Source: Gammaproteobacteria bacterium
Lineage (GTDB): Bacteria > Pseudomonadota > Gammaproteobacteria > Methylococcales > Methylomonadaceae
Length of the DNA: 34,519 bases
Assembly (NCBI GenBank): GCA_018830325.1
Contig: JAHJSQ010000023.1
Span: forward strand, 1-34,519
Direction of reading: 5' to 3'
The position numbers and the translations under genes were made by a program. Shown in pieces: positions 438 to 32,875 of this stretch; the stretch's first letter is position 1; each line of letters begins with the position of its first letter. A model generated the notes under the pieces. That model searched no databases, had not been told where the DNA came from, and saw nothing but the letters and a program-made list of their open reading frames with translations.

Positions 438-713
438 TATACCTTTCGCATTTCAAATTTCGGCAGTGTCGGAGGGGCCTCGGGGTGCTCGGTCGATTTT
501 TGCTCCTGTAAAATAGACATTCACGCCATCCATGGCGCTAGCAAAGGCTTTGCCAGCATGGAGCTGGAATAGAGCCTACATGGACGTATTTACCCAGCAC
601 CTAAATTATCTATGTAATCAATCATGGCCAATAGGCTATGGAATTTAGGTGCTGGGTTTACGGCGTCCCTTGACGGGCACCCCGAGACCGAAATTTTATC
701 TACGATAAGTATA
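438..713. mobile_element. MITE-like element A, TATAC-end family
   Basis: The ends are inverted: TATACCTTTCG on the left and TATACTTATCG read from the right on the bottom strand, both followed a few bases later by an AAATTTCGG block. The same ends occur at 9227-9468 and 26499-26661. The interior contains the shared core (bottom strand GACGCCGTAAA ... TACGTCCATGTAGGCT), split by a nested palindrome at 593-656. It also contains a second module with GCAGGAGCAAAAATC-like sequence that recurs at 1514-1723 and 19950-20242. It ends 6 bp from the stop codon of the PepSY gene, so it may act as part of that gene's 3' end. Confidence 0.75.
593..656. mobile_element. Nested palindromic insert in element A
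   Basis: A 64-bp insert has perfect 15-bp inverted ends, CCCAGCACCTAAATT and its complement. It is bounded by the direct repeat TTTA (589-592 and 657-660), which looks like a 4-bp target duplication. Removing insert plus one repeat restores the uninterrupted core as seen in the element at 26499-26661. The same insert is found at 9284-9348 and 20021-20085. Confidence 0.75.
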
Positions 714-719
714 TAAAAA

Positions 720-1208
720 TCAATCTTCCTCGGCCTTGATGATTTTACCGGTTCCGGCGTCGACCTCGACTTCCATTTCGCGTCCATCCGCCATTTTTAT
801 TTCAAATTCATAGACCGCAAAACCGTCGGTATTGATTTCATACTCCACTTCACTGATCGTGCCCGGATAGGCTTCTAGCGCTATTTTTCGAGCCTGCGCT
901 TCATCAATTTTCTTCAAGGTAGCAAAAGCCGGATGATCAGCGCTCGGCAATTCTTGTTCTTTTTCGAAAATATTGCCGGTTTTATCGCATTTAAACTCCC
1001 ATTTAGCGCCGTCAGCCGATTTTGCTTTGATTTTGTAATACTCGACGCCTTTTTTGTTTTTCAACTTCATTTTGACAATCGGGTCTTGCGTCACTTCGCC
1101 GACTGCTTTGCGACAGGCGTCGAAGGCCGTATTGTCTTGAGCGACAGCGACCGTGCCGAATAAGCCCAGTAAGGCGCTCAAATAAAAATTTTTATTTTTA
1201 TAACTCAT
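720..1208 (-). CDS. Secreted PepSY-domain protein
   Basis: The start at 1208 gives 162 residues beginning MSYKNKNFYLSALLG, with a signal peptide ending near the VAVAQ segment. A GAGGT ribosome site lies about 8 bases upstream; longer upstream starts read into a repeat. The C-terminal third matches the PepSY pattern: an alpha helix (IDEAQARKIALEAYPG), then YEFEIKMADGREMEVEVDA and TGKIIKAEED. PepSY domains are typically found in exported proteins and in inhibitors of proteases or regulators of iron and redox proteins; the exact role here is unknown. Two cysteines (in FDACRKA and FKCDK) may form a disulfide in the periplasm. It stands alone between repeats. Confidence 0.8.
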   Translation of the reverse strand: MSYKNKNFYLSALLGLFGTVAVAQDNTAFDACRKAVGEVTQDPIVKMKLKNKKGVEYYKIKAKSADGAKWEFKCDKTGNIFEKEQELPSADHPAFATLKKIDEAQARKIALEAYPGTISEVEYEINTDGFAVYEFEIKMADGREMEVEVDAGTGKIIKAEED

Positions 1209-1330
1209 GATGATAGACCTCATTGAAAAGTTAACAGGTGCACTCATTGCCGATGCCGACAAGCCCTCTCGAGTTCGGGGCGAGGCATCGGCCGAAGGGT
1301 ACAAAAATATGAAAGTATTTCCTATTTCTG

Positions 1331-1423
1331 GTTCCCACGGTCCTCCGTGGGAACCCATACCTTGGCTGCCGAGGCAAGATCGGTATACATTCCCACGCTG
1401 GAGTGGTGGGAGCGAGGAATGTT
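1331..1423. repeat. Two dispersed hairpin repeats
   Basis: Positions 1331-1354 form a 10-bp perfect stem with a 4-base loop (GTTCCCACGG, loop, CCGTGGGAAC). Positions 1390-1423 form a second, imperfect hairpin of the same TTCCCACGC type. This resembles the GTTCCCACG hairpin repeats common in many proteobacterial genomes. Nothing coding is seen in 1209-1513. Confidence 0.6.
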
Positions 1424-1513
1424 TTCGGCATTAGTTAGGCGATCTTTTCGACCGTCTTTATCTTACACAGCCAATCTTAGCTGCCGCAACTTTAAAGAAT
1501 CACTATCAGAAAG

Positions 1514-1723
1514 CAGCAATTCTCAGTTTTCAGGGTGAGGGGTATGCCTGTCGAGGAACGCCGTAAACCCATTCATGGGGCTTGGCGGCGGCTAAACGCC
1601 AAGGATGGCGTGTATTAGGGCAATGCAGGAGCAATTGCCGAGGAGCAAAAATCTGCCCCTGCCGCCGACATCCTCGCCAAGCAATCGCCGCACCCTTTTT
1701 TATTCTCAAATTGGGAGTTGCTG
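1514..1723. mobile_element. MITE, CAGCAATT family, with 9-bp target duplication
   Basis: The inverted ends are CAGCAATTCTCAGTTTT on the left and CAGCAACTCCCAATTTG on the right (bottom strand). The 9-bp sequence ATCAGAAAG directly precedes the left end (1505-1513) and directly follows the right end (1724-1732). This is a perfect target-site duplication and direct evidence of transposition. The 210-bp interior has no open reading frame of note. It carries the shared core (GGAACGCCGTAAACCCATTC at 1555-1574) and the module GAGGAGCAAAAATCTGCCC. The insertion lies at the stop codon of the neighbouring TonB-receptor remnant, whose stop is kept by the duplicated bases. Confidence 0.9.
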
Positions 1724-1724
1724 A

Positions 1725-2348
1725 TCAGAAAGTCCATTTAACACCGCCCATCATTTGGAAACCCTGACCCGGATGGATACCGTCGACACGGCTGGCTATG
1801 TATTTTTTGTCGCTCAGATTATAACCGTTCATAAACACATTGACGTTTTTGACGACTTGATAATTAGCCGATACATTGAAAACCGTATAGCCGGGAATAA
1901 TGCCTTCTTGTCCACTCGCATCCTCTTCTCGGGTATTTTCAATGTCGACATATTGCTGACTGACACTTTGAATACCAAAACGTATATCTAGACCCCAAGG
2001 CGTTTCGACACCGACATTAGCGTTGATTAAATGCTCCGGAGTATACGGCAATCGATTATCTTTAACGATCCCGGCTCTGGTTTCGGTACTAGCAAAATAA
2101 GCATCGAGATAGGTGTAAGACGTTGTTAAATAATAATTGTAATCGGTACCGAATAGTTGGTTAGAATCCAAACGAAAACCGGTTTCCACCCCTTGGTGTA
2201 CTGTTTCGCCGACGTTGATAAACCGATTATCCGGGACCGTTATGTCTTCCACAATTTGGTTGTCAAAATCGATTCTGAAATAGGTCATTTCCAGACTAAC
2301 ACCCAGTGTAGGCGAGATTCGAACACCATTCCGCTCCCTGCTAACCAC
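1725..2348 (-). pseudogene. TonB-dependent receptor, C-terminal remnant
   Basis: The open frame encodes about 200 residues typical of the C-terminal beta-barrel of TonB-dependent outer-membrane receptors of the ferric siderophore or FecA type. Visible hallmarks are FRIDFDNQIVE, the barrel-strand pattern LTTSYTYLDA, YTPEHLINANVGVE, a strand ending NVNVFMNGYNLSDKKY and the terminal aromatic MMGGVKWTF. A full receptor has 650-800 residues including a plug domain; here the plug and most of the barrel are missing. The frame starts only about 10 bases after hemH ends, with no signal peptide, so this is a broken gene. The stop codon overlaps the target duplication of the adjacent MITE. Confidence 0.85.
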
Positions 2349-2357
2349 TAACTGACC

Positions 2358-3437
2358 CTAAACCTTCGCCCCCAACGCTTTTGCCAAACGATCACGCTTC
2401 CCTGTATCGTTTTCGACTTCCCAGCCTTGCAGGTTTTGCCGAATCAATTGACCTAGCGCGTCGATATGTCCGGGCTCGGCGTTGAGCGCATCGATGTATT
2501 CATAACGGTCGCCGCCGCTGCTTAAAAAATAAGAACGGTTTTCGACGCCGATTTCTTCGATCGTTTCGAGACAATCAGCGGCAAATCCCGGACAAAATAT
2601 TTGTACCGACTTGTAGCCTTGTCCTGGCAAGGCTTTCAGCGTCTCGTCGGTATAAGGCTTAAGCCATTCCTCCCGGCCGAAACGAGACTGAAACGTCGTC
2701 ATGTATTCGTCTGGAGCTAGCTTTAGCGCTTCGGCGATCAATCGAGACGTTTTGTAGCACTCGCAGTGATATGGATCGCCGTTATGTAGGTAGCGCAGCG
2801 GAATGCCGTGATAAGAAAAAATCAATTTATCGGCACGGCCATGCGCATGCCAATGATGCCGGATATGCTCGGCCGCTGCTTGAATGAACGGGTCGAAATC
2901 ATGATAGTGAGTGATGAAGCGCAATTCCGGCAGCCAGCGGCGCTTTTTGAATTGATCCGCCAAGGCATCGAAAGTCGAGGCGGTCGTCGACGCCGAATAT
3001 TGCGGGTATAGCGGTAGCACCAATAATTTTCGGACGCCTTGTTGCAATAGCCTATCCAATACCGATGCGATCGACGGAGTGCCATAGCGCATCGCGAAAT
3101 CGAGCACCAGATCGTCGCCCCAATCCGCCTGTAGATTTTTTTGCAAGGCTTCGGCTTGATGCCGGGTATGAAACATCAACGGCGATCCTTTTTCGGTCCA
3201 TACCGATTTGTAGGATTTTGCCGAACGCCGGGGCCGAATTCGCAGAATGATGAAATTCAAGACAAACCACCAGATAAATCGAGGAACCTCGACGACCCGC
3301 GGGTCAGACAAGAACTCCTTAAGGTAAACGCGCAATTCCTTCGCGGTCGGTGCTTTCGGCGTACCAAGATTGGTAATCAAAACACCTATTTTATCGTTTT
3401 GTTGATGCGTGAATGCGGGACTGCCTTTAAATTTCAT
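2358..3437 (-). CDS. hemH: Ferrochelatase
   Basis: This 359-residue protein inserts Fe2+ into protoporphyrin IX, the last step of protoheme synthesis, at the cytoplasmic face of the membrane. The family signature is clear: GVLITNLGTPKAPTA near residue 18, the conserved LPLYPQYSASTTAS block (141-154), the catalytic histidine in FSYHGIP (H210) and the acidic metal-path motif FCPGFAADCLETIEEIG (281-297). Length fits bacterial HemH. It lies 66 bases downstream of the pentapeptide-repeat gene on the same strand. No strong ribosome site is visible before the ATG at 3437. The TonB-receptor remnant follows immediately; iron uptake and heme synthesis may once have been neighbours in function. Confidence 0.97.
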   Translation of the reverse strand: MKFKGSPAFTHQQNDKIGVLITNLGTPKAPTAKELRVYLKEFLSDPRVVEVPRFIWWFVLNFIILRIRPRRSAKSYKSVWTEKGSPLMFHTRHQAEALQKNLQADWGDDLVLDFAMRYGTPSIASVLDRLLQQGVRKLLVLPLYPQYSASTTASTFDALADQFKKRRWLPELRFITHYHDFDPFIQAAAEHIRHHWHAHGRADKLIFSYHGIPLRYLHNGDPYHCECYKTSRLIAEALKLAPDEYMTTFQSRFGREEWLKPYTDETLKALPGQGYKSVQIFCPGFAADCLETIEEIGVENRSYFLSSGGDRYEYIDALNAEPGHIDALGQLIRQNLQGWEVENDTGKRDRLAKALGAKV

Positions 3438-3503
3438 GCGTTTTCGCTTTGGAATATTGTTTTGTTGAAGTTTGTTAACTCAGCCTTATTTAACAAAGCT
3501 GGA

Positions 3504-4283
3504 TCAATCGAACAGCGCTTGATCTAAATTTTTACTCTTTTCTAAACCTCTAAGTTCGCCTTTATCTTTTATGCCATGAAATTTTGTGCCGGCAAGGTTG
3601 GCCTGCGAAAAATCGGTATCCAGCAGTTTGGCTTGGGAAAGATCGGCACCCGACAAATCGGCACCGGTGAGGTCTGCACCGGCCATGTCGGCGACCATTA
3701 AATTAGCGTTTTGCAGATTGGCACCGTTCAATTTGGCCAAACGCAACATGGCCCGACTCAAATTAGCCCCGGCCAAATTGGCTCCGGTTAAATCGGCGCC
3801 TTTTAAATTGGCGCGCATCAAACCCATCGGCTGATTTTTCATATCCGCCCCCCAATTGGCTTCTCTCAGATCGGCGCCCTTTAAATTAGCACCGTCCATC
3901 ACGGCAATAAAACGACTGCCTCTTAGATTAGCCTTGCTCAAATTGGCCTTGACTAAACTGACACCGAACACGCTGCTATTCGAAAGATCGGCGCCGGATA
4001 AATTGATGCCGGTCATTACGGTCAAATCCAATACCAAACCGGACAAATTACTATTGCTAAAATCGGCCTTTCTCAAATCGGCGCCCCATAAATCGGCATG
4101 GCGAAAATCCAAGCCGGATAAGTCGACTCCGCGTAAGTCCTTCCGGCGCAAATCGGCCGGTTTCTCTTTTGTGGCCGTGCTTAGCAGTTGTTCGATTTGC
4201 GCACGGTCGAGATCGGCCGCAAATGCCGAGGAAGTATTCAGTGCCAATAAAAACAACGAGGTAAATAGGGTAGGTATTTTCAT
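3504..4283 (-). CDS. Exported pentapeptide-repeat protein
   Basis: I start at 4283 (MKIPTLFTSLFLLALNTSS) because an AGGAGAT ribosome site lies just upstream and a signal peptide then ends at AFA/AD; this gives 259 residues. From about residue 45 to the end the protein is an almost unbroken series of A(D/N)LXX pentapeptides (for example GADLRKADFSNSNLSG), which form a right-handed quadrilateral beta-helix. Pentapeptide-repeat proteins have varied and mostly unknown roles; a periplasmic location makes DNA-gyrase mimicry of the Qnr type unlikely. A non-repeat helical segment (DLDRAQIEQLLSTATKEKP) precedes the helix, as in several cell-envelope members. Confidence 0.88.
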   Translation of the reverse strand: MKIPTLFTSLFLLALNTSSAFAADLDRAQIEQLLSTATKEKPADLRRKDLRGVDLSGLDFRHADLWGADLRKADFSNSNLSGLVLDLTVMTGINLSGADLSNSSVFGVSLVKANLSKANLRGSRFIAVMDGANLKGADLREANWGADMKNQPMGLMRANLKGADLTGANLAGANLSRAMLRLAKLNGANLQNANLMVADMAGADLTGADLSGADLSQAKLLDTDFSQANLAGTKFHGIKDKGELRGLEKSKNLDQALFD

Positions 4284-4365
4284 CGTATCATCTCCTAATG
4301 CGTTGGCTTGATCAAAACTCATTATATACTCAGAGCAAGGGCATGTTCAGTTTTCTAAAACGCCC

Positions 4366-4519
4366 CAGCAATTCCCAGTTTGAGAATAAAAAAAGGTGCG
4401 GAGTGTGCTTGGCGAGGATGTCGGCGGCAGGGAGGTCCCATGGATAGGTTTACGGCGTTCCTCGACTGGCATACCCCGCACCCTGAACACGGAAAAATTT
4501 CTCCAACTGGGAATTGCTG
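4366..4519. mobile_element. MITE, CAGCAATT family, with perfect 9-bp target duplication
   Basis: This 154-bp element has 15-bp perfect inverted ends, CAGCAATTCCCAGTT. It is flanked on both sides by AAAACGCCC (4357-4365 and 4520-4528), a 9-bp target duplication. It is shorter than its relative at 1514-1723 and carries the shared core in the opposite orientation (bottom strand CGAGGAACGCCGTAAACC). It lies in the ~320-bp gap between the pentapeptide gene and the ATP-grasp-like gene; the rest of that gap shows nothing else. Confidence 0.93.
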
Positions 4520-4606
4520 AAAACGCCCATTACAAACGAAATGCTTTGTTCCTGACGTTCCGATATTTCTGAGTTAAACTAACCTCCTTTCCTACTCTCC
4601 CTGTAT

Positions 4607-5929
4607 TTGTCTCAAAACGCACTCATGACTTCTTGTAACGATCCGGCATGCGCCAAAAAAGTCGAATTATTAAATAGCGAATGCCGTTGCGTGTCGTTAG
4701 ACCGTCATGCTCTGCGCGATGAATTGCTGGCTCTTAACGATCTTAATCTATTCCGCATGCTCACCGAAGAGCGTCCGTATTTATTCGCAGAATCGGCCGT
4801 ATTCGTCGATGAATCCTGCTTACGGCGGCAATGGGAAATTATCGCGGCACTGGAAAAAGTCATCGATTTACCGGCTTATCAACAGCGGGTATTGGCTTAT
4901 GCGCCTGAAACCGCCCTTTTTACGCCGAAAGCCCGGGGCGTTTTTTTGGGCTACGATTTTCATATCGGACCCAATGGACCGCAATTAATCGAAATTAATA
5001 CGAATGCCGGCGGCGCCCTGGTCAATGCGATCCTGGCGCGCGCTCAAGTCACTTGTTGCGAGCAAGCAGGCGACAGGCGTCCGGGTCAATTACCCGGGAT
5101 GGAGTTAAAACAATCGCTCGAGCAAGTTTTCACCGATATGTTCCTCGAAGAATGGCGACAGGAGCGGGGCGAGCAAGCATTAAAAACGGTTGCCATCGTC
5201 GATGAGCAACCGGCCGAGCAATATATGTATCCGGAGTTTTTACTATTCGAAAAACTCTTCGAGCGGCACGGTATCGAAGCGGTAATTTGCGATCCGTCGG
5301 AGTTGACCTTCATCAATGGCAAGCTGTTATATCGAGAGCTTCACATCGATCTCGTTTATAACCGTCTGACCGATTTCGGTTTGGAAGAAATAGCCTCGCA
5401 AGCATTGCGCAATGCCTACTTAGGCAATGCCGTGGTCGTGACGCCTTATCCCAGAAATCACGCATTGTATGCTGACAAACGCAATTTGGCCGTGTTGACC
5501 GACGCTGCGGTTTTAGAAGAAATCGGCGTAGATGCTGCCACTCGCGAGATTTTATTATCAGGAATCGCACAAACCGTCGTTGTGCGAGAACAAGACGGGG
5601 AAAAACTTTGGTCTGATCGGAAACGTTTATTTTTCAAACCGGCCAAAGGCTTCGGCAGTAAGGCTGCTTACCGCGGCGATAAACTCACTCGGCGAGTATT
5701 TGGGGAAATCTTGCAAGGCGATTATGTCGCGCAACAATGGGTAGCGCCAAGCGAAAGGCACTTAGAAGTTGATGACGCAGTGATGGGTTTTAAATTGGAC
5801 TTGCGTAATTATGTTTACAACGGTCAAGTGCAGTTAGTCAGCGCAAGATTGTATCAAGGCCAGACGACTAACTTCCGTACACCCGGCGGAGGATTCGCGC
5901 AGGTTGTCGTCGTCGATCCGGCCGGATAG
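4607..5929 (+). CDS. ATP-grasp-like protein of unknown substrate
   Basis: The start is uncertain: TTG at 4607 or ATG at 4625; neither has a clear ribosome site, and the frame is closed by a stop at 4580. The N-terminus is cysteine-rich (CNDPACAKK, SECRC). Features of an ATP-grasp fold are visible: GYDFHIGPNGPQLIEINTN near residues 125-143, a lysine and glycine-rich segment FFKPAKGFGSKAAYRG near 345, and a late basic/acidic segment GFKLDLRNYVYNG followed by QTTNFRTPGGGFAQ. ATP-grasp enzymes join a carboxylate to an amine or thiol by way of an acyl phosphate. I cannot assign a substrate. It converges on rdgB with 9 bases between stop codons. Confidence 0.65.
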   Translation: MSQNALMTSCNDPACAKKVELLNSECRCVSLDRHALRDELLALNDLNLFRMLTEERPYLFAESAVFVDESCLRRQWEIIAALEKVIDLPAYQQRVLAYAPETALFTPKARGVFLGYDFHIGPNGPQLIEINTNAGGALVNAILARAQVTCCEQAGDRRPGQLPGMELKQSLEQVFTDMFLEEWRQERGEQALKTVAIVDEQPAEQYMYPEFLLFEKLFERHGIEAVICDPSELTFINGKLLYRELHIDLVYNRLTDFGLEEIASQALRNAYLGNAVVVTPYPRNHALYADKRNLAVLTDAAVLEEIGVDAATREILLSGIAQTVVVREQDGEKLWSDRKRLFFKPAKGFGSKAAYRGDKLTRRVFGEILQGDYVAQQWVAPSERHLEVDDAVMGFKLDLRNYVYNGQVQLVSARLYQGQTTNFRTPGGGFAQVVVVDPAG

Positions 5930-5938
5930 CGCTCGACT

Positions 5939-6532
5939 TTAAAGAGCCGAGGCCAAAACGCTTAACGCCTTGCCCCGATGACTGATCGCATTTTTGACTT
6001 CAGGCGCCAACTGCGCCGATGCACATTCGTACTCGGGCACCCAAAATACAGGGTCGTAACCAAAGCCGTTGTCACCGACCGGTTCATCCAAAATCCGACC
6101 TTCCCAAGTCCCTTGTGCGATCACGGGACAGGGATCCTGGGCATGCTCGATGAACACGATCACGCAGATGAAACGCGCAGTGCGCTGTTCGAACGGCACT
6201 CCGGACAATTCCTTCAACAACTTATCGACATTATCTTGATCGCTGGCATCCGAACCCGCATAACGCGCCGAGATCACTCCCGGGGCGCCGTGCAAATAAT
6301 CCACCGCCAACCCGGAATCATCGGCGATTGCAGGCAGTCCCGAATGGAATGCCGCATTACGGGCTTTCAATAGCGCGTTTTCGACGAAGGTCTTGCCGGT
6401 TTCATCGGCTTCCGCGATTTGGAACTGCGACTGAGGCACAATCGGATGACCGGCCAAAATAGCTTGGATTTCCCGGATCTTACCGGGATTACCGCTGGCC
6501 AGAACGACCGGCTGGGAAGGATTCGATAACAT
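5939..6532 (-). CDS. rdgB: XTP/dITP diphosphatase (non-canonical purine NTPase)
   Basis: This 197-residue enzyme hydrolyses dITP, dXTP and ITP to monophosphates, keeping inosine and xanthine out of DNA and RNA. The RdgB/HAM1 signatures are present: VVLASGNPGKIREI near the N-terminus, the catalytic segment PAIADDSGLAVDYLHGAPG, then SARYAG, and the C-terminal GYDPVFWVPE and AISHRGKAL blocks. Its ATG abuts the rph stop codon without a gap, so the two are translated from one message. The rph-rdgB pairing is common in proteobacteria. Confidence 0.96.
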   Translation of the reverse strand: MLSNPSQPVVLASGNPGKIREIQAILAGHPIVPQSQFQIAEADETGKTFVENALLKARNAAFHSGLPAIADDSGLAVDYLHGAPGVISARYAGSDASDQDNVDKLLKELSGVPFEQRTARFICVIVFIEHAQDPCPVIAQGTWEGRILDEPVGDNGFGYDPVFWVPEYECASAQLAPEVKNAISHRGKALSVLASAL

Positions 6533-7264
6533 TTAAAAGTTTTCCAGAGCTTCGGCTTGTTTTTCCAACAATTGTTTGATGCCATGCTCGGCCAAGCTCA
6601 GCATCGCATCGAGCTCGTCCTTACGAAACGCGTGGCCTTCGGCAGTACCTTGTACTTCAATGAATGCCGAAGCGTCATTCATGACGACATTCATATCGGT
6701 CTCGGCATTGCTGTCTTCGGCATAATCCAAGTCCAAAACCGGAACGCCTTTGAAAATGCCGACTGAAACCGATGCGACTTGTCCGTGCAGCGGATTTTTC
6801 TTGATTTGCTTTTTAGCGAGCATTTTCTGCACCGCCAATGACAAGGCAACGAAACCGCCGGTAATCGATGCCGTTCGTGTTCCGCCATCGGCTTGCAGCA
6901 CGTCGCAATCGATCGTGATGGTATTTTCACCCAGCGCTTTCATATCGACCGCGGCTCTTAGCGATCGACCGATCAAGCGTTGAATTTCCTGAGTGCGCCC
7001 GCCTTGTTTGCCGCGACTCGCTTCACGCCCCATTCGGTCGTGTGTGGAGCGGGGCAACATCCCGTATTCGGCGGTAATCCAGCCTTCGCCCTTACCTTTG
7101 AGAAATCGCGGCACGTTAGTTTCGACACTGGCCGTGCATATCACACGCGTGTCGCCAAATTCTACCAGCACGGAACCTTCCGCATGCTTGGTGTATCCGC
7201 AGGTAAATTTAATGTCTCTCAATTGATCAGGATTACGTCCGCTTGGTCTCATAGTGCTACTCAT
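6533..7264 (-). CDS. rph: Ribonuclease PH
   Basis: This 243-residue phosphate-dependent 3'-5' exoribonuclease trims tRNA 3' ends. Family features include [14 protein letters not shown] at the N-terminus, [42 protein letters not shown] (phosphate-binding arginines) and [20 protein letters not shown]. Length matches the family (about 240). The ATG at 7264 is used here; an internal ATG at 7252 (MRPSGR) matches the start of many homologues and is an alternative. It lies 58 bases downstream of the kinase gene and directly upstream of rdgB on the same strand. Confidence 0.97.
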
Positions 7265-9226: not shown

Positions 9227-9468
9227 TATACTCATCGTAGATCAAAATTCGGCACCGGGGTGTCCGTCAAAGGACGCCGTGAACCCAGCACCTAAATTCC
9301 ATAGGTCATTGGTAATGATTTAATATTATGGCTAATTTAGGTGCTGGGTGAATACATCCCTGTAGGCTCTAGCCAGCTCCATGCTGGCCCCTCACCTAGC
9401 GTTAGGTGAGGGGCCGAACACCCGGTGCCTCCTCAGGCACTGCCGAAATTTGATGTACGAAAGTTATA
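9227..9468. mobile_element. MITE-like element B, TATAC-end family
   Basis: The inverted ends are TATACTCATCG (left) and TATAACTTTCG (right, bottom strand), each followed by a CAAA(A/T)TTCGGCA block. The interior has the shared core (GGACGCCGTGAA ... TACATCCCTGTAGGCT) split by a nested palindrome at 9284-9348, then several small hairpins such as CCAGCTCCATGCTGG and CCTCACCTAGCGTTAGGTGAGG. It fills the gap between yicC and the polyene operon and ends 15 bases before the first ATG of that operon. Confidence 0.75.
9284..9348. mobile_element. Nested palindromic insert in element B
   Basis: A 65-bp insert has the same perfect ends, CCCAGCACCTAAATT and its complement, as at 593-656. It is flanked by the direct repeat TGAA (9280-9283 and 9349-9352). 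The repeated bases differ from the TTTA of element A (TAAA when read in the same core orientation) but match the local core sequence in each case, as expected of a true target duplication. Confidence 0.75.
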
Positions 9469-18796: not shown

Positions 18797-19111
18797 GGCT
18801 ATGTTCGCGTTAGCAGTTGAAACAGTTCTCCTTCCTACTAAATAAACCATTTTGGAACTAGTCAATGATTGTTTTCCAATACACTGAGCGTGGAAGAGGG
18901 TACGATTACTCGCTTGACAGGACGCCGTAAATACGTCCATGTAGGCTTGACGGCGGCTTTCCCTGCCGCCGACACCTGTCAATCGAGCAACCGTACCCTC
19001 CTTTCAACCATTAGCGCGATATTGAAAAAAGGAAAGTTATTCAGAGTTGTATCCTTGGGTTTCATGTTGGCTTTAAATTCAAAAGTATCAACTATTAACG
19101 AGAACATAGCC
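18797..19111. mobile_element. MITE-like element with nested 26-bp inverted arms
   Basis: The outer inverted ends are GGCTATGTTCGCGTTAGCAG (left, 18797) and GGCTATGTTCTCGTTAATAG (right, bottom strand, ending at 19111). Inside is a second inverted pair at 18896-18921 and 18975-19000 starting GAGGGTACG and ending TTGACAGG. Between these arms is the shared core GACGCCGTAAATACGTCC at 18922-18939 followed by a GGCGGC/GCCGCC hairpin. The inner arms plus core recur at 32734-32838, but with different outer ends. No clear target duplication is seen. Confidence 0.75.
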
Positions 19112-19119: not shown

Positions 19120-19205
19120 AGCCGTTCGTTATGAACCTGTCGAACCATGGACTGCTTAATTTAGGATTTCGTGAAAAATAACTTCCTGGAGCTATGAGTT
19201 TTGTA
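19120..19205. repeat. Repeat remnants between element and nucleotidase gene
   Basis: Positions about 19121-19150 (GCCGTTCGTTATGAACCTGT and following) resemble a widespread CCGTTCG...GTCGAACCATG bacterial repeat. Positions 19161-19205 match the left outer arm of the element at 32688-32875 (TTAGGATTTCGTGA, AAATAAC, then CTATG) without a partner arm, so they appear to be half of such an element. Confidence 0.5.
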
Positions 19206-19220
19206 GCGACCGCCACCTTC

Positions 19221-19261
19221 TAACCGCTAACCGCTAACCGCTAACCGCTAACCGCTAACCG
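19221..19261. repeat. Heptanucleotide tandem repeat (TAACCGC)
   Basis: TAACCGC is repeated five times in full plus a partial sixth unit, with no mismatch. The array ends 3 bases before the stop codon of the nucleotidase gene on the opposite strand. Perfect arrays of 7-bp units are prone to slippage; here length change would affect only the 3' untranslated region of that gene. Confidence 0.9.
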
Positions 19262-19949: not shown

Positions 19950-20242
19950 TACTCCCTTTTGGTCGAAAAACCGTCTAAGAATAAAAGGTATGGGATGTGT
20001 CTATCGAGGACCGCCGTTCACCCAGCACCTAAATTATCTCAGATAGTTAACCATAGCCAATTGACTATGGAATTTAGGTGCTTGGTAAACCCATCCATGG
20101 AGGCTTGACGGCAGCAATCGAACGCTAGGGATGGCGTGAATGCAGATTTTGCAGGAGCAAAAATCTGCCCTGCTGCCGACATCCTCGCTAGCCACACCCA
20201 TACCTTCATAAAGTTAACTAATTTTTGAGTATAAAGGGAGTA
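19950..20242. mobile_element. MITE-like element C, TACTCCC-end family
   Basis: The inverted ends are TACTCCCTTT on both strands (left at 19950, right ending at 20242), followed inward by an A-rich block and GGTATGGG. The interior has the shared core in diverged form (GGACCGCCGTTCA ... AAACCCATCCATGGAGGCTT), a nested palindrome at 20021-20085, and the module GCAGGAGCAAAAATCTGCC seen in the element at 1514-1723. The end sequence starting with TA suggests TA-targeting transposition, but this is not proven. Confidence 0.7.
20021..20085. mobile_element. Nested palindromic insert in element C
   Basis: Third copy of the CCCAGCACCTAAATT insert, 65 bp, with one mismatch in the right end (GGTGCTTGG). 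The flanks, TTCA and TAAA, no longer match, so this copy looks older. Its place relative to the core is the same as in elements A and B. Confidence 0.7.
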
Positions 20243-20763: not shown

Positions 20764-20870
20764 CATCTTAGCGCCAAAACTTTTATTTGCACTATGTTTT
20801 CAATGCCTTGTGGGTAGCCGATGGAAAAGCTTACTGCCATTAAGTTAAGGAAACTCCGTCATTCCGCCAC

Positions 20871-21275
20871 CTGATTAGCAAGATGCTTCAGCTTACCGAA
20901 GCCAAGTGTCCGAGCAGGGGCCAGTCGTAGTCGCAAAAACTAAAATATGCTGTTACCCAAGCTCCGGCTTGGGTAACCTGTTCAGGAAGCTCTAGCTTCC
21001 CGACAATCAAGAAAGATTGAACAAGCGAGCCGGGGGTGATTGAGAATGTGCGAAGGTTGTGTCGGTCTCAGGAAGCTCTTGCCCTGAGCCCTTCGGCTGC
21101 GCTCAGGAGAGCCTTGTCGAAGGGGGAGCTTCCGGGGGGGGCTTTCCCAAGCTGGAGCTTGGGAAAGAGCGTGATGTGGGTTGGCCGTTTTAGCTTGACG
21201 CGCATGGCTTGCGAACCCCGTCCTGCTATGGATATGCTGATCTTTGAGCTTTAGCTGAAGAAGCTTACTAATCAG
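20871..21275. mobile_element. MITE with IS1595-like ends (copy 2, complete)
   Basis: The left end is CTGATTAGCAAGATGCTTCA and the right end, on the bottom strand, CTGATTAGTAAGCTTCTTCA. Both match the start of the IS element at 34382 (CTGATTAGCAAGTTTCTTCA). The interior repeats the hairpins of the copy at 1-254 in inverted orientation. A 47-bp unit at 21078-21124 (CCCTGAGCCCTTCGG ... TTGTCGAAGGG), a repeat type widespread in proteobacteria, has inserted into the loop of a GGAAGCT...AGCTTCC hairpin that is intact in copy 1. No target duplication is visible. There is no transposase, so it would depend on one supplied in trans. Confidence 0.8.
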
Positions 21276-25044: not shown

Positions 25045-25077
25045 TGTGAAAAGCATTAAAGCCTACCGAGATTAAAC

Positions 25078-26498: not shown

Positions 26499-26661
26499 TA
26501 TACCTTTCGCACTTCAAACTTCGGCAGTGCCTGAGGAGGCACCAGGGTGTGCGGCAAAGGCTTTGCCAGCATGGAGCTGGCATAGAAGAGCCTACAGGGA
26601 TGTATTCACGGCGTCCTTTGACGGACACCCTGGTGCCGAATTTTGATCTGCGATGGGTATA
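26499..26661. mobile_element. MITE-like element D, TATAC-end family, core intact
   Basis: The inverted ends are TATACCTTTCGCACTTCAAA (left) and TATACCCATCGCAGATCAAA (right, bottom strand), followed inward by a TTCGGCA block. This 163-bp copy carries the shared core without the nested palindrome (bottom strand GACGCCGTGAATACATCC), and so shows the empty site. It also has a GGCAAAGGCTTTGCC hairpin. Its right end contains the ATG used by the next gene. Confidence 0.8.
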
Positions 26662-27642
26662 AATAAACCATTACTGTTTAGCACGGCGTTGGCACTCGCG
26701 GTCTGGCTTGCTTGGTATGCCTATAGCTCGCCTGATAGCCTATCGATCATCGAAGAATATTGGACCGTCACTTTGACGATGGTCTTCGGTTCGTTCATCG
26801 CCGGCGCGACCAGCGAAGGCGGCGGGGCGGTCGCTTTTCCGGTGTTCACGAAAGTACTGCATATCGCCCCGCTCGATGCGAAGGTGTTTTCATTGGCGAT
26901 TCAAAGCGTCGGCATGACCGCCGCGTCATTGACGATAATCGCACTACGGGTTCCGGTTGTCTGGCCGGTCATTGCCTGGGTCAGTTTGGGCGGTTTAGCC
27001 GGCGTTTCGATCAGTTCGGCGGCATTGGCGCCCTTGCTGTCGCCCGCTCTGTTAAAAATGCTGTTCACCGCGATGATCGCCGCTTTTGCATTGCCGTTGA
27101 CGATCTTGACTTGGCAAAAGCGACTGCATAATGACACGCTGCCGTTTTTCGGCGCGCGCGAAAAAGCCATTATGCTGTTGACCGGAACCGTCGGCGGCGG
27201 CATGACCGGCTTGGTTGGCAACGGTATCGATATCATTTGTTTTTCGGTGATGGTTTTGTGGTTCCGTTTATCGGAAAAAGTGTCGACGCCGACTTCGGTG
27301 ATCTTGATGGCGGTCAATGCGCTGGCCGGATTTGCGCTACATGGGTTCTTGCTGGATAGCTTCTCCGCGACAGTAGAACGTTACTGGCTATCGGCAGTGC
27401 CGGTCGTCGTGATCGGCGCGCCGTTGGGCGCTTATTGCTGCACTAAGCTGAATAGTCGGTGCATTGCCGTCATCTTGATACTGCTGATACTGTTCGAATT
27501 GCTCAGCTCGCTGATATTGATTCCATTAACTGCTAATATTATCGGCATCAGCCTGACGGTTTTCGTCATTTTTTTGTGGTTCTATTACCGAATAACCCGG
27601 TCGGCGCGTTACCGGCCGGCTTGTGAAAGAGGAGAAGAATAA
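26653..27642 (+). CDS. TSUP-family (TauE/SafE) membrane permease
   Basis: The 329-residue protein has about nine hydrophobic segments. Two related halves begin with MVFGSFIAGATSEGGGAVAFPVF and LLTGTVGGGMTGLVGNGIDIICF, the glycine-rich signature of the sulfite exporter TauE/SafE family. Members move sulfonates, sulfite or other anions; the substrate cannot be told here. The ATG at 26653 lies inside the right end of a MITE and has no visible ribosome site, so the N-terminus may have been remodelled by the insertion. An alternative TTG start lies about 13 codons further on. The stop overlaps the lipoprotein gene by one base. Confidence 0.88.
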   Translation: MGINKPLLFSTALALAVWLAWYAYSSPDSLSIIEEYWTVTLTMVFGSFIAGATSEGGGAVAFPVFTKVLHIAPLDAKVFSLAIQSVGMTAASLTIIALRVPVVWPVIAWVSLGGLAGVSISSAALAPLLSPALLKMLFTAMIAAFALPLTILTWQKRLHNDTLPFFGAREKAIMLLTGTVGGGMTGLVGNGIDIICFSVMVLWFRLSEKVSTPTSVILMAVNALAGFALHGFLLDSFSATVERYWLSAVPVVVIGAPLGAYCCTKLNSRCIAVILILLILFELLSSLILIPLTANIIGISLTVFVIFLWFYYRITRSARYRPACERGEE

Positions 27643-28205
27643 TGATGCGTACGACTACTTACGGTTTATTTTTATTAATACTATTTTCGCTGACCTCCTG
27701 CACCAGGGCCATCAAGCCCGAAGCCCTCCCGTCACATATCTCATTGGGGGATACCTACTACACGCAATTCGTGATGCGTTACGAGAAAGACGTCCATCCG
27801 ACGACCAATTACCGGCGCGGCGCGTCGATTCCGGTCAATACCCCGGTTAGGCTATTGAAAATGACCAATAAAACGATCGAAGTCGAGGTTGATAATTCCA
27901 GCCAGCATTTGACGATAAAAAATGTTCAAAAACATACCGGAGATGACGTCTATCAGGCCTTCGATAAATTATTCGCGCCAAATAAGATCGATTTATCAAA
28001 GTTCAACGCCTTGGAAAAGCAACATATTCAAAACGGCACGGTAGCCAAAGGCATGAGCAAGGACGCAGTAATAGTCGCGATCGGCTATCCACCGATCACC
28101 GAAACACCGAGCTTGGACGGCAACCGCTGGGTTTACTGGAGCCACCGTTTCAATCGTTTCAATGTGCATTTCAAAGACGGCAAGGTGAGTTGGGTCGAGG
28201 AATGA
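27642..28205 (+). CDS. Small lipoprotein with SmpA/OmlA-like C-terminal motif
   Basis: A 187-residue lipoprotein: the signal peptide TYGLFLLILFSLTSC ends in a lipobox with the acylated cysteine at about residue 20. The C-terminal part, NGTVAKGMSKDAVIVAIGYPP followed by NRWVYWSHRFNRFNVHFKDGKV, recalls the BamE/SmpA-type fold in which a helix is followed by W-Y and F-V-F strands. Its ATG overlaps the permease stop (TAATG) and has an AGGAG ribosome site. The function is unknown. Confidence 0.78.
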   Translation: MMRTTTYGLFLLILFSLTSCTRAIKPEALPSHISLGDTYYTQFVMRYEKDVHPTTNYRRGASIPVNTPVRLLKMTNKTIEVEVDNSSQHLTIKNVQKHTGDDVYQAFDKLFAPNKIDLSKFNALEKQHIQNGTVAKGMSKDAVIVAIGYPPITETPSLDGNRWVYWSHRFNRFNVHFKDGKVSWVEE

Positions 28206-28207
28206 TT

Positions 28208-28414
28208 ATGAATACATTTGAAATCAACAAAATGACTACAACAGAACGTCTTGAAACCATGGAGGCAATTTGGGATTCCTTGGTTCGTGACGAAACTGAA
28301 ATCGACATGCCCGGCTGGCACCGAGACATTCTCGACGAAAGACGCTTGCGCATTGAACGAGGCGAAGCAACGTTTTTTTCCCTTGACGAGCTAAAATCCG
28401 GAAATGGTCGGTAA
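28208..28414 (+). CDS. Antitoxin of a RelE/ParE-type module (addiction module component)
   Basis: I chose the ATG at 28208 because GAGG lies 7 bases upstream; it starts two bases after the lipoprotein stop. The 68-residue product (MNTFEINKMTTTERLETMEA...) matches the putative addiction module component family (TIGR02574): WDSLVRDE near the middle, then WHRDILDERRLRIERGEATFFSLDEL. Such antitoxins bind the toxin with the C-terminal segment and repress the operon. The toxin ATG follows the stop codon directly. Confidence 0.9.
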   Translation: MNTFEINKMTTTERLETMEAIWDSLVRDETEIDMPGWHRDILDERRLRIERGEATFFSLDELKSGNGR

Positions 28415-28711
28415 ATGCCAATTATTCGTATACTGGACGATGCCGCCAAGGATCTTGACGAGGGAAGAGTTTTTTACCAAAAACATGGAGTCGGCAACTA
28501 TTTTTGGGATAGTCTTCTGTCCGATATCGAATCATTGCTAATACACTCAGGTGTTCACCTAAAGGAACACGGTTATTACCGAATGCTGGCAAAACGATTT
28601 CCTTATGCAATTTATTACGACATTCGATTCAACTTCATTGATATCATCGCTGTCTTGCCTATACGCAGAAACCCTTTATGGATCCAGGCGAAAATGAGTG
28701 GCAGGCGCTAA
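28415..28711 (+). CDS. RelE/ParE-family toxin
   Basis: The 98-residue protein has the ParE/RelE layout: two N-terminal helices (AAKDLDEGRVFYQKHG, FWDSLLSDIESLLIH) and a beta-sheet with RMLAKRFPYAIYYDIRFNFIDIIAVLPIRRNP. The RF-PYAIYY and ..AV-P-RR-P signatures are typical. RelE-like members cut mRNA on the ribosome, whereas ParE-like members inhibit gyrase; which applies here is not clear. It directly abuts its antitoxin and ends 42 bases before the second polyene segment. Confidence 0.93.
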   Translation: MPIIRILDDAAKDLDEGRVFYQKHGVGNYFWDSLLSDIESLLIHSGVHLKEHGYYRMLAKRFPYAIYYDIRFNFIDIIAVLPIRRNPLWIQAKMSGRR

Positions 28712-28753
28712 CGCCATTTTTGTTTTTTCCTACTATATATATCCTTTTTCGAC

Positions 28754-29383
28754 ATGATCGCCCTCATAAAAAGCATTATCGCCACCGGCTTGTTTCTATC
28801 CTATCCGTACCTGGTTTACCGGGGGATCGAAAGCGGCATGGTCTGGCTGGCGCCGGCTATTTTTTCCGGCCTCTATCTGATGCGGGCGTTGGCCGCGCCC
28901 AGCCTGAGAATCAAAATCTACAAAGGCCTGTTCGCGCTGGCCTTGCTGTTGGGCGCGTATTATCTGCAAACCGTCACCGCGAAAATATTGCCGGTATTGA
29001 TTCAACTCATGTTGATGGGCGTTTTCGGGCGGACTTTGCTGAAAGACAAGGGACCGCCGTTTATCGAAAGCTTCGTAAGGCTGGAATTCCCTGAAATTCC
29101 TCCCGAAATCCTGGTCTATTGCCGTCAATTGACTTTGCTCTGGACAGGATTTTTCGCATTCAATGCCGCGATGTGTACAATCTTGGCAGTCTGGGGCAGC
29201 GATTTTTGGTGGACAGTCTATAACGGCATATTGATCTATACGATGATAGGCGCTCTGATGATAGGAGAATACATTTATCGCCATTTCCGCTTTCCCGGCC
29301 TAGGCATCCCCGACCCGCGCTCGACGATTAAAACGATGATCGTCAATGGACGTAGAATCTGGATGGACGTGCAGGCGCGTTAA
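28754..29383 (+). CDS. COG4648-type inner-membrane protein (second copy)
   Basis: The 209-residue protein has four or five hydrophobic helices and the same family motifs as the protein at 10739-11290: FVRLEFPEIPPEILVYCRQLTLLWTGFFAFN, WTVYNGILIYTMIGALMIGEY. It has a longer C-terminal tail (GIPDPRSTIKTMIVNGRRIWMD). Family members accompany aryl polyene genes. The stop overlaps the next ATG by one base (TAATG), linking it to the LolA-like and MMPL genes. Confidence 0.87.
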   Translation: MIALIKSIIATGLFLSYPYLVYRGIESGMVWLAPAIFSGLYLMRALAAPSLRIKIYKGLFALALLLGAYYLQTVTAKILPVLIQLMLMGVFGRTLLKDKGPPFIESFVRLEFPEIPPEILVYCRQLTLLWTGFFAFNAAMCTILAVWGSDFWWTVYNGILIYTMIGALMIGEYIYRHFRFPGLGIPDPRSTIKTMIVNGRRIWMDVQAR

Positions 29384-30030
29384 TGAAAAAACCTAACATC
29401 TCCTCATTTTGCTCAACATTTGTTTTGCTGCTGTCGGCCTTGTTATCGACAAATGCGGCTCATGCCGTCGATACCGAGTGGGAAGTCATGCAAAGGATGC
29501 AATCGGATACGGCGGTACGAATCGCCTATCGAGAAACCCGCACGCTGGAACTCATCGACCAACCTTGGCAAGGCGGCGGATATCTGTACTCGCTTGCGCC
29601 GGATTTGATGATCAAGGAGCAATTGCAACCGGAGCGGGTCTTGATGGGCATCAAGGGCGACCGGATGTTCTATTTCGATCCGGCGGCTAATGTACGCCAT
29701 CGCGGCGAGCTGGACGCGGCCAATCCGCTAAGCTTGCATATCGCCTTCTTCAATGCTTTGGTCAATGCCGATGTCGCCTTGCTGCACAGAGTCTACCGCG
29801 TCGATTTCGACGCCCGGGAGCAAGACTGGCTGATGACGCTGAAGCCCAGGCGGGGCGACCGATCCGGACTGACTGTCGTTATTTCCGGCCAGCCCGGACA
29901 ACAAGCCGAACGTATCGAAATCCGGCAGGCCGACGGCGATCTCAGCGAATTTTTGTTGCGCAAGGATGCCGAAGGCGAGGCGATCGAAACCGAAGTGAAT
30001 CGCTTGTATAAAGAATTGCTGGGGAACTGA
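29383..30030 (+). CDS. LolA-like periplasmic carrier of the polyene cluster (ApeL-like)
   Basis: The 215-residue protein has a signal peptide (FVLLLSALLSTNAAHA) and an open beta-barrel pattern like LolA: VRIAYRETRTLELIDQPWQGGGYLYSLAPDLMIKEQ and a later GDRMFYFDPAANVRHRGEL. LolA-like proteins in aryl polyene clusters are thought to carry the lipid-like product across the periplasm. It lies between the COG4648 and MMPL genes, two bases from the latter. Confidence 0.88.
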   Translation: MKKPNISSFCSTFVLLLSALLSTNAAHAVDTEWEVMQRMQSDTAVRIAYRETRTLELIDQPWQGGGYLYSLAPDLMIKEQLQPERVLMGIKGDRMFYFDPAANVRHRGELDAANPLSLHIAFFNALVNADVALLHRVYRVDFDAREQDWLMTLKPRRGDRSGLTVVISGQPGQQAERIEIRQADGDLSEFLLRKDAEGEAIETEVNRLYKELLGN

Positions 30031-30031
30031 T

Positions 30032-32332
30032 TTGCCGAAGCTACGCACTCGCCTGTTTTATCTGTTGCCGCCGCTGTTGGCATTACTGGTGGCGCTGGCG
30101 GTCGAATTCAAGACCGACCTTTCCGCTTTCATCATCGCCGGCGACAATGCCGAGGAACTGCTGCTCGCGAGCGAAATGCAGTCCGGCGCATTGTCGCGGC
30201 GTTATTTAATTTCGGTCGGCTCGGATACAGGCGAACCGGTCACCGGCGCTTTCATCAAGATGCTGCAAGAACGCTTGAACACCATCGACGGCGTGCTCGA
30301 AGTCTGGTCGCCCGAACGACAAAACCAAAACATCGAAGCGGTGCAAGCACTATACCGCGATTACGCCGGAGCGCTCTACAGTCTTACCCCGGAATCGGAC
30401 TTGGCGGAGCTGTTCACGCCGCAAGGCTTGGCGCAACGCGCCGAGTTTTTGAAACGAGCGCTCTTGTCTCCGCAAGGCGCGATGATCAAAAGCATCGCCT
30501 TGCAAGATCCCTTGTTATTGACGCTGAACGGCTTTCGCACCGTCGGCGCGCAAATGCAACAAGCCGGCATCACCAATACGCAATACCAGAATCTGATCCT
30601 GGAAACCGAAATGGCCGGATTGGACGCGCCGCAACAAAGCCGAATTCAGGCGGCGATCGAACAAACCTTCAAAGAACAGATGCAAGACCGGCCGGAATCA
30701 TGGCGACTGGAAATGACCGGCGTGCCGGTGTTCGCGGTGGCAACGCAACAATTGATTCAGGGCGATATCGTCCAAATCAGCATTCTGTCTTCCATTGCCT
30801 TAATGGCACTGTTTCTGCTGTTGTTTCGTTCGTTCGGCGCGCTGCTGCAAGTGTTCACCTTATTGATCATCGTGATCCTGAGCGCGATATTGAGCACCGC
30901 TTGGGTATTCGGCTATGTGCACGGCATGACGATCGCGATCGGCTCGACGCTGATCGGCATCTGCATCGACTACCCGATACATGCGATTGCGCACGCGCAA
31001 ACGGTTCGCGCCGAAGACAAGACCGCGGCAATTATTAGAATCTGGCCTAGCCTTTTACTGGGAGGTATTACAACGCTGGTCGGTTATACGGCCTTAGGCG
31101 CGTCCGGTTATCCTGGATTTCAACAAATCGCGGTCTATGCCGGCACCGGCATCATTGCCGCTTTATTGTTGACTCGCTTCATCCTGCCGGGCTTGGTCGC
31201 GGGCGGCGACCGCAGAACGTTAACGGTACCGTTAGTCGCCCGCTGGGCAAGCTTCTGCGCGCGTTTTCGGCCTTGGCTATTGACGGCATTGTTGGTACTG
31301 CTGGGCTCGTCGCTATTCGCCTTGCCGTCGTTACGCTGGCTCGAAGACATGCAGGACCTAACGCCGGAACTGGATTATCTAAAAGAAAACGACAAACGGA
31401 TTCGGGCGCGTATGGTCAGCATAGAGCCGGGGCGTTTCGTGCTAATTACCGGGCAAGACATCGAAACCGCACTGCAAAAAGCCGAGCAAGTCTATCCGGT
31501 GTTGGAGCGACTGAAACGACAAGGCGAACTGAACGAGTATTTCGGCCTATATCCGTGGCTGCTGTCGGCAACGCAACAACAACGGAATCAAGCGCTATTG
31601 CAAGACTCTCTGACCGACGAAAATCTAAAGCTTTGGCAACAAGCTTTGCGGGAGCAAGGCTTGTCGGTCGAGCGGCTAGGCCGATTCGGCTATCACAAAC
31701 AGGACGCGCTGACATTAAAGCAGGTATTCGAAACACCGGTCAAAAGATTGATCGACAGCCGCATCATCAGCACGGAGCGTCAAAGCGTCGTGATGATCTG
31801 GCTGGCCGAACATGACCCCGAAGCGCTCCGAGCGGCGCTAGCTACGATCGAGGACGCGCGCTATTTCAGCCAGCGCGACCTGCTCAACAACATGACCCGC
31901 GACTATACCGAGCGTGCGCAAACTTTGCTGGCGGTCGGATTAGTCATCATCGTCCTGCTATTGGTCGTGCGCTACCGAAGCCTGGTAAAAACGCTGCAAA
32001 CCCTATCGCCGGCAGTGTTGTCGGCGCTATTCATTTTAAGTCTCTGGTCGCTCGGCGGCGCGGCGATTAGCTTTCTGCATTTGGTCGGTTTTCTGCTGGT
32101 CGTCGCAATCTGTGTCGATTACGGTATTTTTTACCAGGAAAATCGCGGCGGCGATATCAAACTAACCTATCAAGCGATGGCCGCCTCGATGTCGACCAGC
32201 GCGCTGGCTTTCGGTTGCTTGGGAACGGCCGAGAGCACGTCGCTTAGAATTCTGGCCGGCGTCGTCGTGCTCGGCGTGCTGTTGGGTTTTTTGTTTTGTC
32301 CGCTGATCATCAAGCACCGGGAAGGCGCTTGA
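30032..32332 (+). CDS. MMPL/RND-type exporter of the polyene cluster (ApeM-like)
   Basis: The start is TTG at 30032, one base after the previous stop. The 766-residue protein has the RND/MMPL plan twice over: one helix (FYLLPPLLALLVALAVEF), a large periplasmic domain, five helices (from ISILSSIALMALFLLLFRSF), then the pattern again with a second periplasmic domain and five helices. GICIDYPIHAIAHAQ and VAICVDYGIFYQE in the helix-4 positions hold the acidic residues expected for proton coupling. In aryl polyene clusters it is thought to extract the product from the inner membrane and hand it to the LolA-like carrier. It is the last gene of the second segment. Confidence 0.92.
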   Translation: MPKLRTRLFYLLPPLLALLVALAVEFKTDLSAFIIAGDNAEELLLASEMQSGALSRRYLISVGSDTGEPVTGAFIKMLQERLNTIDGVLEVWSPERQNQNIEAVQALYRDYAGALYSLTPESDLAELFTPQGLAQRAEFLKRALLSPQGAMIKSIALQDPLLLTLNGFRTVGAQMQQAGITNTQYQNLILETEMAGLDAPQQSRIQAAIEQTFKEQMQDRPESWRLEMTGVPVFAVATQQLIQGDIVQISILSSIALMALFLLLFRSFGALLQVFTLLIIVILSAILSTAWVFGYVHGMTIAIGSTLIGICIDYPIHAIAHAQTVRAEDKTAAIIRIWPSLLLGGITTLVGYTALGASGYPGFQQIAVYAGTGIIAALLLTRFILPGLVAGGDRRTLTVPLVARWASFCARFRPWLLTALLVLLGSSLFALPSLRWLEDMQDLTPELDYLKENDKRIRARMVSIEPGRFVLITGQDIETALQKAEQVYPVLERLKRQGELNEYFGLYPWLLSATQQQRNQALLQDSLTDENLKLWQQALREQGLSVERLGRFGYHKQDALTLKQVFETPVKRLIDSRIISTERQSVVMIWLAEHDPEALRAALATIEDARYFSQRDLLNNMTRDYTERAQTLLAVGLVIIVLLLVVRYRSLVKTLQTLSPAVLSALFILSLWSLGGAAISFLHLVGFLLVVAICVDYGIFYQENRGGDIKLTYQAMAASMSTSALAFGCLGTAESTSLRILAGVVVLGVLLGFLFCPLIIKHREGA

Positions 32333-32416
32333 AGATACAGTAAAAAAACAACATCCCCAAATGGCTTCCACGCTAGGCTGTCGTAATTTACCGATTTTCA
32401 AGATATTTTGAGCGCC

Positions 32417-32496
32417 GTAGGGCACGCATCGCGCACCTTTCCACGATAGCGAACCCGGCGAGATGTCCCGACCCAGGTGCGCGATGCGCACCCTAC
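32417..32496. repeat. Dispersed inverted repeat, GTAGGG...GCGCACC type
   Basis: The arms at 32417-32437 and 32476-32496 are near-perfect complements (GGTGCGCGATGCG on the right pairs with CGCATCGCGCACC on the left). This repeat type is common in proteobacterial intergenic regions. The surrounding gap 32333-32687 has no gene that I can support. Confidence 0.65.
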
Positions 32497-32687
32497 AACT
32501 GGCGTTTTATAACCTATGCTCACCAACAATTTCCAAGATTTTTTGAGATTAAAAAGTGGGAACACAGAATTTAGCTAAAATGGATTTTTTCGACAGCCTA
32601 CTTCCACGCTCCGCGCTCGTCGTTATCTAGTCAAATTTCGGCGCCGGGGCGCTCGGGCTAATGGTTTGAATGACACGCATCAGAAGC

Positions 32688-32875
32688 CTTAGGATTTCGT
32701 GATAAATAACGTCTTTGAACTATGCGCTTTGTTGAGGGTTCGGTAACTCGCTTGGCAGGACGCCGTGAATACGTCCGTGTAGGCTTGACGGCGGCTTTCC
32801 CTGCCGCCGACACCTGCCAATCGAGCAACCGAACCCTCCGTAAAATGGGGAAGTTATTTACGACCCAATCCTTAA
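32688..32875. mobile_element. MITE-like element with GAGGGTTCGG arms and AGGATT ends
   Basis: The outer ends are AGGATTTCGTGATAAATAAC (32691-32710) and AGGATTGGGTCGTAAATAAC (right, bottom strand, 32872-32853). The inner 26-bp arms are at 32734-32759 and 32813-32838, with the shared core GACGCCGTGAATACGTCC between them. The inner part is the same module as in 18896-19000, but the outer ends differ. It ends 65 bases before hsdM. Confidence 0.75.

Follow-up and report, generated by a model that had tools for sequence, protein, structure and literature searches.

Eight elements of the window share a core

The window analysed here is a stretch of 34,519 nucleotides from a gammaproteobacterial genome of the family Methylomonadaceae. 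A first-pass annotation had proposed that eight elements in it carry a common core between unrelated ends. All eight elements, 154-315 bp long, were located and every one of them contains the core, which is intact (ACGCCGTRAATACRTCCNTGTAGGCT) in three, interrupted by a common hairpin insert in three and present as a sister form (AACGCCGTAAACCYATYCATGGG, in which CCC/GGG replaces TAC/GTA) in two. The elements are referred to below by their end types (S1 to S7). Three have TATAC ends (S1): 438-713 on the plus strand, whose core is split by the insert at 593-656; 9227-9468 on the minus strand, with the insert at 9284-9348; and 26499-26661 on the plus strand, with an intact core at 26589-26614 on the minus strand. 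Two CAGCAATT-ended elements (S6) hold the sister core. One (1514-1723, minus strand) has a 9-bp duplication of ATCAGAAAG and its core at 1558-1583 on the plus strand, and the other (4366-4519, plus strand) has a 9-bp duplication of AAAACGCCC and its core on the minus strand. The GGCTATG-ended element (S3; 18797-19111, minus strand) is flanked by TTAAACTA and TTAAGCTA, which are alike at 7 of 8 positions, and contains an intact core at 18922-18947 on the plus strand. The core of the TACTCCC-ended element (S7; 19950-20242, minus strand) is split by the insert at 20021-20085. The AGGATT-ended element (S4; 32688-32875, minus strand) shows a 3-bp duplication, TTA, around 32692-32871 and an intact core at 32760-32785 on the plus strand. 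The GCAGGAGCAAAAATCTGCC side module, described earlier as shared between end families, was recovered in 19950-20242, as a variant with additional GAGGAGC in 1514-1723, and in diverged form at 495-537 within 438-713.

Other repeats lie in the same window. Positions 48-256 and 20869-21077 form a 209-nt inverted pair that is 95% complementary with 20.6 kb between its members, and smaller CCCAAGCT(C/G)... palindromes are found near it. Half of an AGGATT-type (S4) element at 19161-19204 adjoins a 7-base tandem repeat at 19209-19261.

Structure of the conserved module

The approximately 40-bp core of the first-pass annotation is conserved, but the true conserved unit is larger and comprises the core, a second hairpin and a stem enclosing both. 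Comparison of copies gives good support for a structured nucleic-acid module on the strand opposite to that on which the core had been written, here called the GGA strand (the plus strand in 438-713). In the proposed fold, an outer stem of variable sequence (P1) closes a three-way junction with two hairpins, P2 and P3, which have ANGGA loops. On the GGA strand P2 reads AGCC-YAC-[ANGGAY]-GTR-TTYAC-GGC, and P3 is a variable stem closed on [ANGGAY]. Among the window elements, the P2 loop is ATGGAC in 438-713 (580-585) and 18797-19111 (18935-18940), ATGGAT in 4366-4519 (4440-4445) and 19950-20242 (20093-20098), AGGGAT in 9227-9468 (9356-9361) and 26499-26661 (26596-26601) and ACGGAC in 32688-32875 (32773-32778); it has decayed to ATGAAT (1571-1576) in 1514-1723. 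The P3 loop of 26499-26661 is ATGGA. P3 is truncated in 4366-4519 and holds the side module in 19950-20242, and in 1514-1723 the side module stands where P3 would be.

To examine the fold, 125 copies with the exact core pattern were taken from 117 named loci. The P1 partner usually lies 26-27 nt beyond the core, as in 63 of the 77 copies whose P1 run is 6 bp or longer. In 37 of 119 usable copies, 10 bp or more are joined by Watson-Crick pairs without a break, compared with 0.13% when partners were swapped between copies, and in 34 of 119 the run reaches 15 bp or more; 106 of the 119 arm sequences are distinct. An example is Marinimicrobium (loci L205, L219 and L256-L262), in which the outer arms are unlike from copy to copy while their pairing is kept and the core and usually P3 stay constant; the two arms seemingly undergo mutual correction. 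P3, which sits between the core and the returning strand of P1 and was part of no search pattern, has TCC (GGA on the opposite strand) in its loop in 113 of 124 copies. In 85 of 122 copies a hairpin closes on NTCCNT, compared with a mean of 0.46 and a maximum of 3 after shuffling.

Covariation was scored in a second set, in which 304 core matches were reduced to 139 distinct copies of one spacing and thinned to 93. The inner stem of P2 covaries (TAC/GTA, CCC/GGG, TCC/GGA and TAT/ATA), with 99.3% standard pairs versus 80.6% after shuffling, although the letters of P2, loop included, are partly fixed by the patterns used to fetch the loci. The outer P2 pairs are nearly invariant in these 93 copies; in Rheinheimera they are changed to GTC/GAC. 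P3 has 89.1% standard pairs versus 58.8% after shuffling. The value for P1 is 89.8%, but entry into this set required P1 to be mostly paired, and the fair test of P1 is therefore the count of runs of at least 10 bp given above. In the source genome the P2 loop, which belongs to the search pattern, is kept in 80 of 82 core matches; 53 of those 80 have the P3 hairpin (GGA on the other strand), in 17 a GCAGGAGC module takes the place of P3, and 10 have neither. A hairpin GGACG...CGTCC within the core was also considered and dropped, since the R of RTCC would disrupt its pairing and the P2 pairs already account for the covariation.

Strand asymmetry

A G.U pair on one strand corresponds to an A.C mismatch on the other, so that wobble pairs carry information on the strand that folds. 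Among distinct copies whose P1 could be scored (220 of 274), 353 P1 wobbles are consistent with the strand opposite the core and 80 with the core strand; by our own arithmetic, composition alone would give a ratio of about 1.2 to 1. Counted per copy (n = 102), 68 lean to the opposite strand and 9 to the core strand, with 25 ties. The asymmetry is absent in P2 alone (6 versus 8) and slight in P3 (10 versus 5). Fold energies agree in direction with P1: the GGA strand was the more stable one in 87 of 112, 33 of 45 and 44 of 54 copies, compared with 58 of 111, 19 of 46 and 25 of 54 random windows. A bias of this sign could also come from single-stranded DNA, as G.T wobbles stabilise DNA hairpins too. 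The suggestion of the first-pass annotation that the core itself is functional finds support: a structured RNA carrying the consensus of a protein site is indicated by the conserved loops, the covarying stems and the asymmetry between strands.

The functional RNA might instead be the other strand, a small RNA whose two loops contain UCC. This is how Rfam draws Ysr224 (RF02770), the family that represents the Yersinia carrier of the module: it is modelled on the core strand with a fold different from that of the GGA-strand module, and scores 129.9 bits in the Yersinia carrier (L197) and 19-32 bits in other carriers. Ysr224 is also tabled as a temperature-responsive Yersinia sRNA in the part of a review consulted (PMC9029176). 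Both the wobble and the energy asymmetries favour the GGA strand, however, and the core-strand RNA is considered improbable. At the gathering threshold no Rfam family, Ysr224 (70 bits) included, matched the window.

End types, target duplications and exchange

The ends were surveyed in 40 stretches of the source genome totalling 738 kb, the window included. Among 91 core matches, 88 could be classified by their arms and three were left out. The ends differ between elements as first described, and they are more numerous than initially recognised (at least four families), with seven arm types in 738 kb. Both arms were of one type in 72 of the 88 classified cores, namely 27 S1 (TATAC), 21 S2, 7 S5, 5 S4, 5 S7 (TACTCCC), 4 S6 (CAGCAATT) and 3 S3 (GGCTATG); the other 16 have mixed arms, are cut by the end of a stretch or are unclear. 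Since S2 to S5 have inner arms that look related, the seven are to be taken as end types and not as independent origins.

The carrier elements resemble MITEs in having terminal inverted repeats and, where it can be read, a duplication of fixed length for each end type. All five complete S6 elements have a 9-bp target duplication, exact in four and with 8 of 9 letters in one. Exact 3-bp duplications were found in 13 of 19 S4/S5 spans (AGGATT/GGAATATG). Among 16 S3 spans collected with a loose pattern, four have an 8-bp duplication with 7-8 of 8 letters alike, two of them with and two without the core, and one further core-bearing span is alike at 4 of 8. S1 and S7 (TA) are not resolvable in this respect. 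The search for an autonomous partner with S6 ends opened one 2.7-kb span, in which no transposase was found; its open reading frames resemble, by our own reading, an NlpC/P60 protein and a chromate transporter. Some ends enclose no core, as in a 78-bp S1 element and in S3 ends around other palindromes. At L008:8534-8737, GGCTATG-type ends enclose a GTAGGGTACGC pair, and at L023:7848-7997 they enclose a GTCATCCC pair that resembles a CGTC-type REP.

Two kinds of composite element were observed. An S7 (TACTCCC-type) left arm is joined to an S4 (AGGATT-type) right arm twice (L030, minus strand, 10629, and L024, 4143), and an S6 CAGCAATT element is nested within an S5 GGAATATG element (L012, 9474-9786). 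The two chimeras are joined at the core, in line with the earlier proposal that elements recombine there. From the chimeras and the nested element it follows that the centre has been swapped between end types, and the 72 of 88 cores with like arms indicate that such exchange is not frequent. A core always linked to a single end family, with exceptions due to later nested insertion, was not what was seen: nested insertion accounts for some cases, such as that in L012, and the core is still carried by seven end types.

The insert that splits the core in 438-713, 9227-9468 and 19950-20242 is a CCCAGCACCTAAATT...AATTTAGGTGCTGGG-type hairpin, situated at the same point of the core each time and with TGAA or TAAA-like letters on either side. 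Of 25 paired inserts in the 738 kb, 19 have both core flanks, five have one and one has none. We regard the insert as a guest at this one position of the core, hosted by elements that differ in end type; either it is nested there through a very narrow choice of target or it has spread along with the core.

These composites could also be accommodated by an inert core, that is, an old MITE interior passed on by inheritance and kept uniform by recombination and arm correction, while decay and nested insertion replaced the ends around it. Chimeric and nested elements, the related inner arms of S2 to S5 and the elements that have the same ends and lack the core are all consistent with such a history. 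It does not account for loops and a junction that are near-identical across the class while the stems vary, nor for an asymmetry that is strand-specific, and it is regarded as rather unlikely.

Distribution of the core

A degenerate pattern with up to two mismatches found 245 core copies in the source genome (4.8 Mb, 167 contigs) and none when the pattern was reversed, so the copies are not due to chance. Counting the source genome each time, the core was present in 29 of 121 relatives, patchily in 19 of 185 genomes of a sample of the class Gammaproteobacteria, and in 7 of 37 gammaproteobacterial genomes of a phylum sample in which 113 genomes of other classes had none. One genome of the same genus has 584 copies at one mismatch. 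Among named contigs the core occurs in at least 117 stretches. The matches listed include Stenotrophomonas, Rheinheimera, Marinobacter, Microbulbifer, Halopseudomonas, Luteimonas, Yersinia similis and Methylomonas; their titles are mostly gammaproteobacterial, with one bin labelled Rhodobacteraceae and one labelled only Proteobacteria. Stenotrophomonas maltophilia SJTL3 has 93 copies, among them 21 plus/minus pairs spaced 253-360 bp. A 62-nt consensus had no match at E 0.01 in phage, plasmid and E. coli collections.

Relation to known repeats

One carrier of the module is already known. The printed 168-nt sequence of the RU-2/YPAL element of Yersinia and Erwinia (PMC2759123, seen in part) carries the core together with P3 on the GGA strand, and like the elements described here it is repeated, mobile and palindromic. 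YPAL has a single end type and a length of 168 bp, and according to the portion of a review available to us (PMC2229807) its target duplications are 3-26 bp, it targets dyad symmetry and it may affect upstream transcripts. The window elements, in contrast, measure 154-315 bp and have duplications fixed for each end type; they are therefore relatives of YPAL in the core and not members of it. In the sections of the YPAL literature consulted, a class-wide core, an exchange of ends and a CsrA site are absent from its descriptions. YPAL/RU-2 (Rfam Ysr224) is thus a known carrier, and the new part is the portable core with twin sites. Among publications matching the core letters, only PMC2759123 is known to contain the element, the others having been judged by title.

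High-copy intergenic palindromes, sometimes placed within larger palindromes, are also typical of REPs (GTAG and CGTC families) and BIMEs (PMC3733652, in part). Many cores contain GTAGGCT, the part of Di Nocera 2013 consulted records REPs located within palindromes (PMC3733652), and the source genome has, by our own reading, two RAYT-like genes, all of which would suit a repeat of the REP type that is mobilised by a RAYT transposase and tagged by GTAG. The module differs in its three-way junction, its conserved loops and the absence of a fixed tag: GTA belongs to the P2 stem, where it covaries with TAC, and CCC/GGG copies have no GTAG. Nor does the core adjoin any of the three Y1 genes of the source genome, the 2.7-3.4 kb around each containing only look-alikes with two mismatches. 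On these tag and flank tests a REP/RAYT origin was rejected as very improbable. One 234-aa Y1 transposase (L076:1400-2180; RAYT-like by our own reading) lies between AAAAGGGGTCAGGTTAC inverted repeats unrelated to the core.

Both loops fit the CsrA consensus

The GGA strand, written as RNA, closes P2 as UAC-ANGGAY-GUA and P3 on C-ANGGAY-G. This corresponds to the published Rsm site, 5'-A/U CANGGANG U/A-3' (PMC4353343 and PMC6849547, consulted in part), a match that was recognised only after the structure had been worked out. In the set of 93 copies, P3 conserves the letters C, A, GGA and G, while its stem varies freely, as does the second letter of the loop. P3, which was not selected for, contains CANGGANG in 81 and ANGGA in 86 of the 93 copies; P2, which was partly selected for, has CANGGANG in its hairpin loop in 92. 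Since both loops fit the CsrA/RsmA consensus and the source genome has one csrA gene, the module is probably a twin CsrA site. CsrA-titrating RNAs of the CsrB/RsmZ type likewise present (A)NGGA sites in hairpin loops (PMC9788540, available in part). These are single genes with many sites, whereas the module has two sites per unit and many dispersed mobile copies.

We put the probability at roughly one half that the module is a twin-site RNA, probably CsrA-binding, carried as cargo by several MITE families. Element RNA, which we infer to be transcribed in the source genome, would most likely bind CsrA through both loops and could then act either as a CsrA decoy or as a binding site for CsrA in its own neighbourhood, with a putative benefit to host or element. 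In this reading the module rides in the middle of MITEs of several end families, each presumably moved by a transposase of its own, and passes between families through recombination at the shared centre and through insertion of palindrome into palindrome. A broader version is more tentative: that this is a class-wide mobile RNA module, present in tens to hundreds of copies in many gammaproteobacterial genomes, with two near-ideal CsrA sites per copy and portable between transposon types, so that transposition builds a CsrA sponge or plants CsrA sites beside genes. If so, a large dispersed repeat set in many gammaproteobacteria, methanotrophs included, would be a conserved RNA module and not inert, with a nameable protein partner that links mobile elements to a global post-transcriptional regulator. 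The Yersinia YPAL elements would gain a testable function, and the module would be a clear example of cargo common to transposons with different ends and duplication lengths. Literature searches on CsrA with repeats or MITEs, and on the core letters, found no earlier CsrA reading, class-wide core or end-type exchange, which is not proof of novelty.

Some findings count against the twin-site CsrA reading, among them the modelling of Ysr224 on the other strand. The presence of csrA does not discriminate between carriers (32 of 33) and non-carriers (39 of 42), a comparison without power in which the 42 core-less genomes were hand-picked from the class list. Orientation to neighbouring genes is neutral, with 27 co-directional and 32 antisense copies outside the source genome and 8 and 9 inside it. 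Open reading frames were called by a simple length rule in this test, and of the 153 copies of one set (set D), 61 inside such frames and 17 without a near neighbour were not counted. Outside the source genome, convergent gaps exceed divergent ones, 29 to 9.

The neutral orientation also fits a module that acts as single-stranded DNA, with RNA unnecessary: a recombinase that seeks hairpins would recognise the GGA-strand hairpin during replication or transposition, or the hairpin would serve as a preferred landing site. The stabilising G.T wobbles, the hairpin insert at one point of the core and the targeting of dyad symmetry by YPAL (as noted in the review excerpt cited above) fit this explanation. 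It leaves unexplained the CsrA consensus in both loops with a free second letter, and the core does not flank the Y1 genes of the source genome. We consider it unlikely, if the foremost of the alternatives, and retain the twin-site RNA.

GGA loops are not confined to the GGA strand of the module. The GCAGGAGC side module, at 1600-1660 and 20125-20168 of the window, contains a core-strand hairpin with a GGA loop, GCC-AAGGAT-GGC (near form CGCTAGGGATGGCG), and may, judging from these letters, add sites on the other strand.
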